Shown here: positions 684 to 33,725 of the stretch, in pieces
Layout of the letters: each line of letters begins with the position of its first letter
Position numbering within the stretch: the first letter of the stretch is position 1
DNA from: Urechidicola croceus
GTDB taxonomy: Bacteria > Bacteroidota > Bacteroidia > Flavobacteriales > Flavobacteriaceae
Assembly: GCF_001761325.1 (NCBI RefSeq)
Contig: NZ_CP017478.1
Coordinates: 1,633,501 to 1,697,500, forward strand
Direction: 5' to 3'
Length of the DNA: 64,000 nucleotides
Notes under the pieces: generated by a model
Told to the model about the DNA's origin: nothing
Seen by the model: the letters and a program-made list of their open reading frames with translations, nothing else
Databases searched by the model: none
Translations under genes and position numbers: made by a program

Positions 684-730
684 AAATTTAAAATTTTAAG
701 GTTCTCGACCTTGATTATTTATTAAGGGTG

Positions 731-29538: not shown

Positions 29539-29571
29539 AAAAAAGGCTGTCAAAATTGACAGCCTTTTTTT
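29539..29571. terminator. Bidirectional terminator between convergent genes
   Basis: GGCTGTCAA (29545-29553) pairs with TTGACAGCC (29556-29564) around AA, flanked by A and T tracts, so it can work in both directions. It ends the plus-strand secreted-protein gene and the minus-strand aromatic operon. Confidence 0.92.
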
Positions 29572-29592: not shown

Positions 29593-30675
29593 TTAAGATT
29601 TTAAGATTCTTTCTTGATGATTAATTGATTCTTGATGAATTGCTTTAAACATTTTCAAAACAAACTCTTCACTCAATCCTTTTTCTTCACCTTGTAATAT
29701 CATTTTACCAAGAATTTCATTCCATCTACTTGATTGTAAAACAGCTATATTTTTCTCTTTTTTCAAGGCTCCTATGGCATCTGAAATATTCATTCTTTTA
29801 CCCATAGTTTCAACAATACTGTTGTCAATAACATCAATTTGAGCACGTAGAGTATTTAATTTAGCATTATAATCTGCAGCATCACTACCTTCTTTTCTTA
29901 TTTTTAAATCTCGCATGATTTGCTTTAAAGTATCAGGTGTTACTTGTTGTCTTGCGTCACTCCATGCCTTTTCAGGATCAAAATGTGTTTCAATCATTAA
30001 ACCATCAAAATTCAAATCTAACGCAGTTTGAGATACATCAAAAATCATTTCTCTCTTTCCTGTAATATGTGAAGGGTCATTGATTAAAGGTATATCTGGA
30101 TATTTATCTTGAAAATCAACTGCTAATTGCCATTCTGGGATATTACGGTATTTTGTTTTTTCATAAGTTGAAAAACCTCTATGAATTGCGCCTATGTTTT
30201 TAACACCAGAATTGTATATTCTTTCAATTCCACCAAGCCATAAAGATAAATCTGGGTTTACTGGATTCTTTACTAATACTGGTTTATCAGTACCTTCTAA
30301 AGCATCAGCAATTTCTTGCATAATAAATGGACTTACTGTTGAACGAGCACCGATCCATAACATATCTACATCGTGTTCTAAGGCCAATTTTACATGAGCA
30401 GCATTTGCAACTTCGGTTGTTGTCTTCATACCCGTTTCTTCCTTCACTTTTTGAAGCCATTTTAAACCCAATGCACCTACACCTTCAAACATTCCTGGAC
30501 GAGTCCTTGGTTTCCATATTCCAGCACGAAAATAATTAACATCAGTATCTTTTAATTCGTGCGCAATTTTTAATACTTGTTCTTCTGTTTCGGCACTACA
30601 TGGTCCTGCAATAACCAATGGATGATCTAAATTCATATCGTCCAACCATTTTCTCATTTCTTTTGTGTTCTTCAT
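29593..30675 (-). CDS. Bifunctional DAHP synthase / chorismate mutase
   Basis: A 360-residue fusion. Residues 1-260 are a type I-beta DAHP synthase (VIAGPCSAET, FRAGIWKPRTRPG, VLVKNPVNPDLSLWLGGIER, DPSHITGKR), the first step of the shikimate pathway. Residues about 270-360 are an AroQ-class chorismate mutase (LNTLRAQIDVIDNSIVETMGKRM, with Arg and Lys of the active site in the helices). Fusions with this domain order are known in Porphyromonas and Prevotella, where the mutase domain also gives feedback by prephenate. It is the last gene of the pheA-aminotransferase-tyrA operon. Confidence 0.95.
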   Translation of the reverse strand: MKNTKEMRKWLDDMNLDHPLVIAGPCSAETEEQVLKIAHELKDTDVNYFRAGIWKPRTRPGMFEGVGALGLKWLQKVKEETGMKTTTEVANAAHVKLALEHDVDMLWIGARSTVSPFIMQEIADALEGTDKPVLVKNPVNPDLSLWLGGIERIYNSGVKNIGAIHRGFSTYEKTKYRNIPEWQLAVDFQDKYPDIPLINDPSHITGKREMIFDVSQTALDLNFDGLMIETHFDPEKAWSDARQQVTPDTLKQIMRDLKIRKEGSDAADYNAKLNTLRAQIDVIDNSIVETMGKRMNISDAIGALKKEKNIAVLQSSRWNEILGKMILQGEEKGLSEEFVLKMFKAIHQESINHQERILKS

Positions 30676-30697: not shown

Positions 30698-31564
30698 TTA
30701 TTTATTGTGTTGTTGTTTTTGATTAATTCCTTTTAAAATTTCTTTTAAATGGTTTGTATCGCTCATGCTATTGTGAATTTCTTTTGCATTATCTTGCTCT
30801 ACAAATTCTTTAAATTCGATTAAGTTTTTAATGTATTGTTCTAATGAACTTATCAGGTTTTTTTTATTGTGTAAAAAAATAGGTGTCCAAGTATTTGGTG
30901 AACTTTTAGCCAATCGAACTGTAGATTCGAATCCACTCCCAGCCATATCAAATATATTTTGCTCACTTCTTTCCATTTCAAGTACTGTTTTTCCTAACAT
31001 AAATGAACTTACATGCGATAAATGAGATACATATGCAATGTGCCTATCATGTTCAGTAGCACTCATATATTTGTATTCCATACCTAAACTATCAAAAATT
31101 TCAAAAGCCTTATTTGCAATTTTTCTATCAGTTTTTTCAAGCTCACATAGAATATTTACTTTTTTTGAAAATAAGTCTTTAATTGCGGCTTCTGGTCCTG
31201 AAAATTCTGTACCTGCAATTGGATGTGCTGCTAAGAAATTCTTTCTTTTTGGATGATTTCCTAACATCTTACATATTTCTTCTTTTACTGAACCTACATC
31301 AAAAACTAATGTATCTTCAGCAATAAGATCTAAAACTTTTGCAGCAATCTCAACTACTGTATCAACGGGTGTTGCAATAATTACAACGTCTACATCTGTT
31401 AATTTATTTATAGTTGTAATTTCATCAATAAAACCGATTTCCAATGCTTTTTTTGCATTTTCTGGCCTATCTACACCTAAAATTCTACAGCCAAAGGCGT
31501 CCTTTATATCCAAAGCTAGTGAACCACCTATGAGCCCCAAACCAATAACTGCAATTTTTTCCAT
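30698..31564 (-). CDS. tyrA: Prephenate dehydrogenase
   Basis: The 288-residue protein converts prephenate to 4-hydroxyphenylpyruvate with NAD. It has the Rossmann start MEKIAVIGLGLIGGSLALDI, VDVVIIATPVDTV, DVGSVKEEIC, AAHPIAGTEFSGPEAA and HDRHIAYVSHLSH with the catalytic His. No fused chorismate mutase or ACT domain is present; the mutase is on the neighbouring DAHP synthase. Its start directly abuts the stop of the aminotransferase gene. Confidence 0.95.
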   Translation of the reverse strand: MEKIAVIGLGLIGGSLALDIKDAFGCRILGVDRPENAKKALEIGFIDEITTINKLTDVDVVIIATPVDTVVEIAAKVLDLIAEDTLVFDVGSVKEEICKMLGNHPKRKNFLAAHPIAGTEFSGPEAAIKDLFSKKVNILCELEKTDRKIANKAFEIFDSLGMEYKYMSATEHDRHIAYVSHLSHVSSFMLGKTVLEMERSEQNIFDMAGSGFESTVRLAKSSPNTWTPIFLHNKKNLISSLEQYIKNLIEFKEFVEQDNAKEIHNSMSDTNHLKEILKGINQKQQHNK

Positions 31565-32707
31565 TTATAATCTTTTTAACGCTTTTTCTAATTGTGTTTC
31601 ATCAATACACAATGACAATCTAATATATCCTTCTCCATTTGAACCAAAAATATGTCCAGGTGTTATAAAAATATCTTTATTATAAAGTAAATCATCTACA
31701 ACCTCGTCTGTTGAAATACCTTGAGGCAATCTTGCCCAAACAAACATTCCTACACCCTCTTTATCATACGTACAATTCAATTTGTCTAAAATTTTCCAAA
31801 CTATCTTACGACGACTTTTATAAACAGAATTAACTTCTTCAAACCAATCTTTAGATGAATTTAAAGCAACTATTGCACCTTGTTGGATTCCATAAAACAT
31901 TCCAGAATCCATATTACTTTTTACTTGTAATACCGTATTTATCAAATCTGAATTTCCTAATAACATTCCTACACGCCAACCTGCCATGTTAAATGTTTTA
32001 CTTAATGAGTTCAATTCTAAAACTACACCATTTGCTCCATCTACTTCCAAAATACTCATCGGAGAATCGTTTAAAATGAAACTATACGGATTATCATTCA
32101 CTAAGAGTATTTCATTCCTTTTGGCAAAATCAACCATCTTTTCATACAATTTTTTCGTTGCTGGGGCTCCAGTTGGCATATGCGGATAATTTGTCCACAT
32201 TATTTTCACTTTTGATAGATCTAGTTTTTCTAAATCTTCAAAATTAGGTTCCCAATTTGAATCTTCAGTCAAATCATAAAATATTGGTTTAGCACCTACT
32301 AAATTAGTTACTGATGTGTAAGTTGGATATCCAGGATTTGGTATTAGAACCTCATCACCTTCATTTAAAAAAGCCATTGAGATATGCATAATCCCTTCTT
32401 TTGACCCCATCAATGGCAAAATTTCATTTGTTGGATTTAAGTTAACATTATAATTATCATTATAAAAATTTGAGATGGCACTTCTCAATTCTGGTAATCC
32501 CTGATAACTTTGGTATCCATGTGCCTTAGGGTGTGACAAAGAGTCTTGAATAGCAGTCAAAACATCATTAGATGGTGTCAAATCTGGACTACCAATAGCA
32601 ATACTTATGATAGGTTTCCCTTGATTTCTTAAGCCTGCTACTTCTCTTAATTTTTTTGAGAAATAGTACTCGCTTACATTATTCAATCTATTTGCCTTTT
32701 GTATCAT
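31565..32707 (-). CDS. Pyridoxal-phosphate aminotransferase of the aromatic operon
   Basis: A class I/II fold-type I aminotransferase of 380 residues. It has PNPGYPTYTSVTNLVGA, NYPHMPTGAPA, the catalytic Lys in NSLSKTFNMAGWRVG (near residue 235), and RLSLCIDE for carboxylate binding. By position between pheA and tyrA it probably makes phenylalanine and tyrosine from their 2-oxo acids, or acts on prephenate. Aspartate or diaminopimelate aminotransferase activity cannot be excluded from sequence. The start overlaps the pheA stop by one base (TAATG). Confidence 0.88.
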   Translation of the reverse strand: MIQKANRLNNVSEYYFSKKLREVAGLRNQGKPIISIAIGSPDLTPSNDVLTAIQDSLSHPKAHGYQSYQGLPELRSAISNFYNDNYNVNLNPTNEILPLMGSKEGIMHISMAFLNEGDEVLIPNPGYPTYTSVTNLVGAKPIFYDLTEDSNWEPNFEDLEKLDLSKVKIMWTNYPHMPTGAPATKKLYEKMVDFAKRNEILLVNDNPYSFILNDSPMSILEVDGANGVVLELNSLSKTFNMAGWRVGMLLGNSDLINTVLQVKSNMDSGMFYGIQQGAIVALNSSKDWFEEVNSVYKSRRKIVWKILDKLNCTYDKEGVGMFVWARLPQGISTDEVVDDLLYNKDIFITPGHIFGSNGEGYIRLSLCIDETQLEKALKRL

Positions 32708-33525
32708 TACCTTTTATTTCTAGAGTATTCTCCTAATATTTTTAACGTTTCAACTTTTAATTCAATTTGATTTAAACTTCGCTCGTAATCTTCATACTTG
32801 TCAAAAATTAAATCTGCAAAAAAAGCATAACGCCATGGTGTTTCAATTACTGGCATTGATTGAATCTTTGACAAACTCACATTGTTTTGACCAATTATCC
32901 TCAATATCTCTCCTAAACTTCCTGGTTCATGAGAAGCAGTAAATCGGATAGATGCTTTATCTGCATTATTGTTTTTCACATCATCTTGGTGTTCTAAAAT
33001 AAAAAAACGTGTTGCATTATTTTTAATCGTTTGTATTTCTGGGGCAATTATATTTAAATCATATATACCTGCTGCTAATACACTTGCAATTGCCCCAACA
33101 CCCAACAATTTTTTTTGTTTAATTCGTTTTGCCACTTCAGCAGTATCCTTATCCTCAATTAATTTTATATGTGGATACTTTTCAAAAAAGTCCATACACT
33201 GTAAAATTGCCATTGGATGAGAATACACCTCTTTTATCTCATTTATTGATTGCCCATTTAAACACATCAAATTTTGATGTATTGGAAGATAGTACTCACC
33301 AACTATTCCTAGTTTGTATTTATCAATCAACGCATAATTTGGCAAAATTGAACCCGCTATTGAATTCTCAATAGCCATTACCAATCTATCAACTTTCTTA
33401 TTTTTTAAGTGTATTGGCATTTCTGAAAATGTCATACATTCAAACAATTCAATATCTTCAGAAAAATATTTCTCTGCCACTATATGATGAAATGAACCTC
33501 TAATCCCTTGAATTGCTATCTTCAT
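32707..33525 (-). CDS. pheA: Prephenate dehydratase
   Basis: The 272-residue protein makes phenylpyruvate. The dehydratase domain (about 1-180) has IAIQGIRGSFHHIVAEKYF, AIENSIAGSILPNYAL, SHPMAILQCMDF and NNATRFFILEH, including the Thr-Arg-Phe active-site motif. The ACT domain (about 195-272) begins ASIRFTASHEPGSLGEILRII and should give feedback by phenylalanine. There is no chorismate mutase domain. It is the first structural gene after the attenuator, 12 bp from the terminator's T tract. Confidence 0.96.
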   Translation of the reverse strand: MKIAIQGIRGSFHHIVAEKYFSEDIELFECMTFSEMPIHLKNKKVDRLVMAIENSIAGSILPNYALIDKYKLGIVGEYYLPIHQNLMCLNGQSINEIKEVYSHPMAILQCMDFFEKYPHIKLIEDKDTAEVAKRIKQKKLLGVGAIASVLAAGIYDLNIIAPEIQTIKNNATRFFILEHQDDVKNNNADKASIRFTASHEPGSLGEILRIIGQNNVSLSKIQSMPVIETPWRYAFFADLIFDKYEDYERSLNQIELKVETLKILGEYSRNKR

Positions 33526-33536
33526 TATATTTTTAC

Positions 33537-33572
33537 AAAAGAAAAAGTCTCGATTTTTAATTTCGAGACTTT
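33537..33572 (-). terminator. Attenuator terminator in front of pheA
   Basis: On the minus strand AAAGTCTCGA (33572-33563) pairs perfectly with TCGAGACTTT (33553-33544), a 10-bp stem with a 9-nt loop, followed by TTTTTCTTTT running to 33537. It sits between the leader peptide and the pheA ATG (33525), on the operon's own transcript, so it is a premature terminator rather than the end of an upstream gene. Confidence 0.9.
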
Positions 33573-33616
33573 CTTATTTTAATTTATTATATTTTTTAAA
33601 AAACACACAAAGTCTC
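33565..33616 (-). promoter_or_regulatory. Antiterminator helix of the pheA attenuator
   Basis: The transcript segment GAGACUUU (33616-33609), which begins at the last base of the leader stop codon, is an exact complement of AAAGUCUC (33572-33565), the 5' arm of the terminator. The two 8-10-bp helices exclude each other. A ribosome waiting on the Phe/Tyr codons leaves GAGACUUU free and favours the antiterminator; a ribosome reaching the stop codon covers it and lets the terminator form. Confidence 0.85.
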
Positions 33617-33678
33617 TATCTTTTATTGAAAAAATAAAAGAAATAAAAAAAATTAGACCAAGTGTTTTGTACTTTCAT
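33616..33678 (-). CDS. pheL: Phe/Tyr-rich leader peptide of the aromatic operon
   Basis: A 20-codon frame from ATG at 33676-33678 to TAG at 33616-33618. The sequence begins MKVQNTWSN, then FFYFFYFF (six Phe, two Tyr in eight codons), then NKR. This is the classical layout of phenylalanine-sensing leader peptides such as enterobacterial PheL. It starts about 13 bp after the predicted transcription start and ends where the antiterminator strand begins. Tyr codons within the run suggest sensing of both end products. The symbol pheL is used by analogy. Confidence 0.88.
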   Translation of the reverse strand: MKVQNTWSNFFYFFYFFNKR

Positions 33679-33695
33679 TGTTATTATTTGATATG

Positions 33696-33725
33696 CAAAT
33701 TTAAAAATAAAAAACAAATATGCAA
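33696..33725 (-). promoter_or_regulatory. Promoter of the aromatic amino-acid operon
   Basis: On the minus strand TTG (33725-33723), 19 bases, then TAAATTTG (33703-33696): a full match to the Bacteroidota -33/-7 consensus with ideal spacing. Transcription should begin near 33691 and include the whole leader peptide. Confidence 0.82.

Follow-up and report, generated by a model that had tools for sequence, protein, structure and literature searches.

Among the closest described systems, the pheA leader of Escherichia coli contains codons for Phe and none for Tyr, and it is followed by the gene for the chorismate mutase-prephenate dehydratase. The enterobacterial ilv and thr leaders show how a single leader can respond to several products of a branched pathway, although the amino acids sensed there are the branched-chain ones or Thr/Ile, as opposed to the aromatic ones at the pheA leader examined here. 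With regard to aromatic synthesis, enterobacteria use a split control, in which a Phe leader, a Trp leader and the action of TyrR and TrpR on the DAHP synthases each take a part.

In Bacteroidota, the Bacteroid-trp leader (Rfam RF01692) is among the elements listed in PMC2864571. It likewise consists of a leader peptide and an attenuator, and it is present before trpE of the genome analyzed here, that of Urechidicola croceus, but it differs from the pheA leader in having a WWW run and in preceding trp genes. This trpE leader, MTNTQNNTWWWNSLNQ (L354:1300-1440), has a terminator-like hairpin and matches RF01692 with 55.7 bits, the cut-off being 49. An Rfam scan of the window, by which we mean the whole 64,000-nucleotide stretch of DNA that was analyzed, and of the leader itself gave no match to RF01692 at the pheA leader. 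The enterobacterial Phe leader of Rfam (Phe_leader, RF01859), which is a Phe leader-peptide element like that of the window, aligns with the latter over its full length, at 22.6 bits and thus far below its cut-off of 55.

A comparable element is on record for Flavobacterium psychrophilum. The main text of its transcriptome map (PMC9723704) describes a 5' element upstream of pheA that is structured, that is conserved in further genera of Flavobacteriaceae and that had no hit in Rfam. It also reports strong indications of leader-peptide attenuation upstream of operons for amino-acid biosynthesis. The gene and the family are the same as for the element of the window, and other Flavobacterium species were found to carry the pheA leader. 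Given that both the pheA 5' element and, in generic terms, leader-peptide attenuation are reported in that text, the core of the attenuator is not new. For pheA, the section of the main text of PMC9723704 that deals with the element gives no leader peptide, segments, covariation, sensed amino acid, Trp codon or wider spread. What is new is the presence of Phe and Tyr in all 147 leaders of the family, the recurrence of Trp in 93 of them, and the position of the leader before an operon that holds the only detected DAHP synthase.

For Bacteroides, small ORFs in long 5' UTRs have been described as reminiscent of leader peptides, pheA being unmentioned in the accessible text of that paper (PMC7366714). 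Bacteroidetes are mentioned in PMC4833913, from which pheA, phenylalanine, tyrosine and aromatic are absent, and none of the word stems looked for is present in PMC2965389. Within the open-licence literature, no paper was recognized to deal with a leader for Phe, Tyr and Trp in bacteria of this class, and among the papers found the pheA element is named by PMC9723704 only.

The leader element and its operon

The features of the element and of the operon are collected in Table 1. An earlier note on this DNA had placed the promoter, the leader ORF, the antiterminator, the terminator, the T tract and pheA, and all of its coordinates proved exact when compared with the sequence. It had also described the operon as pheA-aminotransferase-tyrA-DAHP synthase/chorismate mutase, with which the Pfam matches agree.

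Table 1. Predicted features of the pheA leader element and of the operon in the window
Feature	Position	Strand	Basis or remark
Promoter, Bacteroidota type, TTG-N19-TAAATTTG	33696..33725	-	sequence; TTG 33725-33723, TAAATTTG 33703-33696
Leader ORF, MKVQNTWSNFFYFFYFFNKR and stop	33616..33678	-	sequence; ATG at 33678, TAG 33618-33616
Control codons, FFYFFYFF	33628..33651	-	sequence
Trp codon TGG, leader residue 7, candidate third control codon	33658..33660	-	recurrence in relatives
Segment 1, AAAACAC-N2-GGUCU	33655..33668	-	minimum-energy fold
Segment 2, antiterminator strand, 8 nt GAGACTTT (RNA GAGACUUU)	33609..33616	-	sequence; conserved spacing and pairing
Segment 3, terminator 5' arm, AAAGTCTCGA	33563..33572	-	sequence
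Segment 4, terminator 3' arm, TCGAGACTTT	33544..33553	-	sequence; covariation in relatives
T tract, TTTTTCTTTT	33537..33546	-	sequence; the initial three bases are paired as part of segment 4 too
pheA, prephenate dehydratase with ACT domain	32707..33525	-	PF00800 (E 5.4e-55), PF01842; ATG at 33525
Class I/II aminotransferase	31565..32707	-	PF00155 (E 1.1e-61)
tyrA, prephenate dehydrogenase	30698..31564	-	PF02153, PF20463; NF006307 above cut-off
DAHP synthase-chorismate mutase fusion	29593..30675	-	PF00793 and PF01817
14-bp hairpin closing the operon, terminator-like on both strands	29539..29570	-	hairpin scan

The promoter box TAAATTTG resembles the -7 box TAnnTTTG as it is quoted in PMC9723704. 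Segment 2 begins with the last base of the leader stop codon and lies 11 nt past the last Phe codon. Its exact complement over 8 bp, AAAGUCUC (33572-33565), is contained in segment 3, which in turn forms with segment 4 a terminator hairpin (33572-33544) of 10 perfect pairs and a 9-nt loop. The generic hairpin scan missed this terminator because it was limited to loops of 8 nt.

The RNA from 33616 to 33544 folds better than expected by chance, with a z of -3.6 and none of 200 shuffles as good, and the same was found for the whole leader, 33544-33690, at a z of -2.8 and with 2 of 200 shuffles as good. The three competing hairpins are close to each other in predicted strength: -11.3 kcal/mol for the 2:3 hairpin when it is forced, -11.6 kcal/mol for the 3:4 hairpin (-13.2 kcal/mol on a longer piece), and -14.3 kcal/mol for the 1:2 hairpin, which is the minimum-energy fold.

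The identity of segment 1 had to be revised. The earlier note had suggested the pairing of AAAGU with ACUUU, but runs of at least 5 pairs occur in 82% of the leaders and in 77% of the shuffles, which amounts to chance. Contiguous runs of at least 8 pairs between leader and segment 2 are found in 17% of leaders as against 5% of shuffles. Folding of all the RNA made before segment 3 predicts a longer 1:2 hairpin, in which 33668-33655 would pair with 33615-33600 through 12 pairs (33615-33611 and 33606-33600). Across the 147 family members, 73% of segment 2 is predicted to be paired to the leader, compared with 46% for shuffled leaders (mean z -2.25); in the window alone the difference is small, at 62% versus 52% and -14.3 versus -12.8 kcal/mol. 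As the predicted pairing of segment 2 with the leader exceeds that of shuffles in the relatives, the element is likely to be a four-segment attenuator, with the 1:2 hairpin itself as a tentative assignment.

With regard to the operon, only the third gene (tyrA) passes a cut-off among the NCBIfam models run over its genes. The order pheA-aminotransferase-tyrA-DAHP synthase/chorismate mutase recurs in 78 of 80 named contigs, and no near match to the operon was found among plasmid records. Two matches to PF00793 were obtained in the genome, one of which is KdsA (NF003543 and TIGR01362 above their cut-offs). The other was taken to be the gene of the operon, given that this gene matches PF00793 and that the remaining match is KdsA. 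Profile searches with PF00793 and PF01474 detected no second DAHP synthase in this genome. Most Flavobacteriaceae genomes have exactly two PF00793 matches, and an enzyme of the PF01474 type was found in 0 of 199 of them.

Several observations were made elsewhere in the window and the genome. An S16-Flavobacteria ribosomal protein leader (RF03138) lies at window positions 688-722 on the minus strand, above its gathering score, and a long TAT trinucleotide repeat at 1123-1164 on the same strand (contig 1634623-1634664). Near hisG, no His-rich ORF reached the threshold that was applied, and the many Leu/Ile/Val-rich ORFs around the two ilvD-like genes included none that could be recognized clearly as a leader.

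Conservation and covariation among relatives

The comparative checks named in the earlier note, namely conservation of the leader ORF and compensatory changes in both helices, were positive, the terminator stem showing compensatory changes and the antiterminator strand covariation with the 5' arm of the terminator. Of 199 Flavobacteriaceae genomes, which represent one genome per genus with one exception, 178 gave a PheA match, and 150 of the 178 upstream regions, including that of U. croceus, entered the family count. In 147 of these 150, a leader in which 5 or more of 8 residues are aromatic is accompanied by a terminator and by a segment 2 at 4-16 nt past the last aromatic codon, the distance being mostly 11 nt. 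When the threshold is raised to 6 aromatic residues in 8, 143 of 149 relatives (U. croceus left out) still have such an ORF; the reverse strand reaches it in 2 of 149 cases, and shuffled sequences in 8 of 447. The leader is absent upstream of pheA in three genera among the 150 (L147, L150 and L315). By eye, L147 and L150 have repeated hairpin-like sequences where the leader would be.

A further set of 80 named contigs, mostly of Flavobacterium and some labelled Urechidicola, Lutibacter, Zhouia and Robertkochia, included 79 with enough upstream DNA. An ORF that scores at least 5 is present in each of the 79; on the opposite strand this holds for 6 of 79, and among shuffled sequences for 37 of 237. 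The automatic choice of the leader gave the right geometry in 65 of 79; at some loci of Flavobacterium an incorrect ORF was selected, and several of the remaining contigs do have the true leader ORF. In 142 of 147 family leaders, the 60 nt that precede the leader ATG contain a promoter box of the form TAnnTTnG, whereas shuffles lead to an expectation of 20.6; this relaxed form was picked after the result for the strict box was known. The strict TAnnTTTG was rejected as the promoter box of the family, being found in 30 of 147 (7.5 in shuffles).

The terminator stem was assessed in a MAFFT alignment, A1, of 47 of 176 sequences with similar linker length. Pairing in the stem amounts to 94.8%, 6 of its 10 pairs are changed on both sides, and compensatory changes occupy 31 cells of the alignment as against 6.2 in shuffles. 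When the partner is slid by one to three columns, stem pairing is at most 57%. Segment 2 is aligned inconsistently in A1, and the 2:3 pairing was therefore judged by swap and permutation tests. Over 185 loci, the longest Watson-Crick run between segment 2 and its own segment 3, the 5' arm of the terminator, averages 5.98, compared with 4.30 after permutation; the best of 1000 permutations reached 4.62, which is below the observed value. Runs of at least 5 occur in 80% of the 185 loci, compared with 18% when arms of another class are used. The variants of segment 2 and segment 3 that occur together include GAGAC/GTCTC, GGGACT/AGTCCC, AGGATT/AATCCT, GCGGGA/TCCCGC and GCGGTC/GACCGC. One exception is the segment-3 class GTTCC (4 loci), which pairs less with its own segment 2 (4.0) than is the case with the arms of others (4.56). 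Taken sequence by sequence, the 2:3 pairing has a p of at most 0.05 in 150 of 284 cases and is often non-significant singly; as this test is weak, support for 2:3 pairing was taken from the pooled test.

The element extends beyond the family. Outside Flavobacteriaceae, the full element was found at 38 of 63 loci and in 19 of 29 families, in a count that leaves out 23 further matched genomes. With Flavobacteriaceae included and a family with a divergent PheA left out, this corresponds to 20 of the 30 families of the class that were sampled. The full element is absent from 25 of the 63 outside loci, including 6 of 6 in family f27 and 3 of 3 loci from small genomes (f16). In the family with the divergent PheA (f5; same order, 26-31% identity), no Phe/Tyr-rich leader was found in any of the 12 upstream regions (L292-L303). 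Five loci elsewhere in the class (L357, L359, L363, L365 and L369) have pheA followed by the DAHP synthase-chorismate mutase gene, with no adjacent match to tyrA or the aminotransferase. Loss of the Tyr codons where tyrA is not beside pheA was not seen, as Tyr is kept in the leaders of all five such loci.

Proposed mechanism and alternative explanations

The attenuator reading of the earlier note is strongly supported by this comparison, through the conservation of the leader, the compensatory changes in 3:4 and the covariation of 2:3. Judging from the sequences, we assign a probability of about 0.93 to a ribosome-mediated transcription attenuator that controls pheA, the aminotransferase gene, tyrA and the DAHP synthase/chorismate mutase gene. 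In the mechanism that we infer, transcription would start just upstream of 33678 and a ribosome would translate the leader behind RNA polymerase. When charged Phe-tRNA and Tyr-tRNA, and possibly Trp-tRNA, are ample, the ribosome would arrive at the stop codon and cover segment 2; segments 3 and 4 would then form the terminator and transcription would end, the 3' end of the terminated transcript being expected near 33540. When any of these tRNAs is scarce, the ribosome would stall in the aromatic codons and leave segment 2 free to pair with segment 3, and the polymerase would continue into pheA. About 11 nt beyond the last Phe codon is also where a ribosome that has stalled there is expected to have its leading edge. 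As segment 2 starts at this expected edge, a stall at any of the control codons would leave it free. The 1:2 hairpin would probably pause the polymerase and hold the gate shut if the leader is not translated.

A simpler explanation would be that the leader ORF is incidental and that the hairpin is an ordinary terminator, constitutive or partial, without control by a ribosome. Phe/Tyr runs do arise by chance in AT-rich DNA, and the genome contains 43 runs of seven TWY codons, compared with 45 of the reversed pattern. We therefore rejected any significance of the Phe/Tyr run taken alone, the reversed pattern being equally frequent in this AT-rich genome. An incidental ORF is nevertheless very improbable, given that the run, its spacing to segment 2 and the 2:3 complementarity are all conserved, and that, among the genomic runs examined, only the one in the pheA leader lies in a short ATG-initiated ORF with a strong terminator-like hairpin after it. 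Of the others examined, two contain an ATG in frame but are not followed by a hairpin of this kind, and a third is followed by a weak hairpin but lacks an ATG. A switch that senses tRNA or a protein without translation, as a T-box-like element or the target of an RNA-binding protein would, could make use of the structure that is predicted for this RNA in the absence of a ribosome. Still, conservation applies to a coding run in which codons for Phe and for Tyr are both present and which keeps within a narrow range of distances to segment 2; no T-box or riboswitch match of Rfam was obtained in the window, the matches at the leader are sub-threshold only, and a T-box covariance match was found neither in the window nor among the weak matches at the leader. 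We regard such an untranslated switch as the least credible of the explanations considered here.

Amino acids proposed to be sensed and biological significance

The Phe and Tyr codons on which the earlier note had based its reading of the leader are borne out by the relatives, as both amino acids are present in 147 of 147 family leaders. The Trp codon, which that note had not discussed, is recurrent in relatives: Trp occurs in 93 of 147 family leaders, compared with 4 and 12 of 147 in the other two frames. Among leaders with a terminator outside the family, Trp is present in 9 of 40 and absent in 31.

The residues that replace Trp were examined in two sequence contexts, which were defined after the data had been seen and cover 117 of the 147 leaders. 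In the first (n = 88), the position is occupied by Trp in 42 leaders, Tyr in 20, Phe in 13, Asn in 10 and other residues in 3; in the second (n = 29), by Trp in 18, Tyr in 6, Phe in 1, Ser in 2 and Asn in 2. Trp, Tyr or Phe is thus found in 75 of 88 and 25 of 29 leaders, respectively. None of the 117 leaders has another xGG codon as a substitute for Trp, which suggests that the codon is kept for its amino acid and not merely for RNA pairing. The distance of Trp from the end of the run varies by leader, at -1, -5 to -7 or -9 to -12. A quickly built tree of PheA with 73 rows, for which Flavobacterium rows without Trp had been thinned beforehand and which carries a long-branch warning, requires at least 12 changes in the presence or absence of Trp, 5 of these changes being forced by well-supported branches. 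In a Flavobacterium group (L086, L088, L102, L104-L106 and L108-L110), Trp is the last residue of the run (SYYFFW or TYYFFW).

Given that Phe and Tyr are universal in the family leaders, that Trp is recurrent, and that the operon holds the only detected DAHP synthase, we propose that the leader may be an all-aromatic sensor, in which shortage of Phe, Tyr or, in most sampled genera, Trp would open the operon with the sole DAHP synthase. We consider the chance that this proposal is correct to be slightly better than even. A serious competitor, to which we give somewhat less than even odds, is that the attenuator senses Phe and Tyr only and that the Trp codons persist by chance or because they serve RNA pairing. 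It would account for the lack of Trp in 54 of 147 family leaders and in most of the outside ones, for the location of the GG of the window TGG in the predicted 1:2 helix, and for the fact that the genome has a Trp attenuator of its own before trpE. Less easily accommodated by sensing of Phe and Tyr only are the excess of Trp over the other two frames, the substitutes at the Trp position, which in the 117 leaders of the two contexts are mostly Tyr or Phe and never xGG, and the varied placement of Trp together with its repeated changes on the PheA tree.

The predicted ribosome-mediated attenuator described here is a likely main control of aromatic amino-acid synthesis in a large, little-studied class of bacteria, and it has no above-cut-off match in Rfam 15. 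Attenuation of this kind implies that the ribosome on the leader is close behind the polymerase, in organisms whose mRNAs are described in PMC9723704 as being without Shine-Dalgarno sequences. The pheA element is therefore a handle for testing such coupling in these organisms. If Trp is sensed as well, the signals of all three end products would be combined by a single leader at the step with which the pathway begins. Should the all-aromatic reading be true, the element would be an old device of Bacteroidota, given its presence in 20 of the 30 families sampled, in place of the split control of enterobacteria, and its control of the DAHP synthase would be control of the entry to the whole shikimate pathway.
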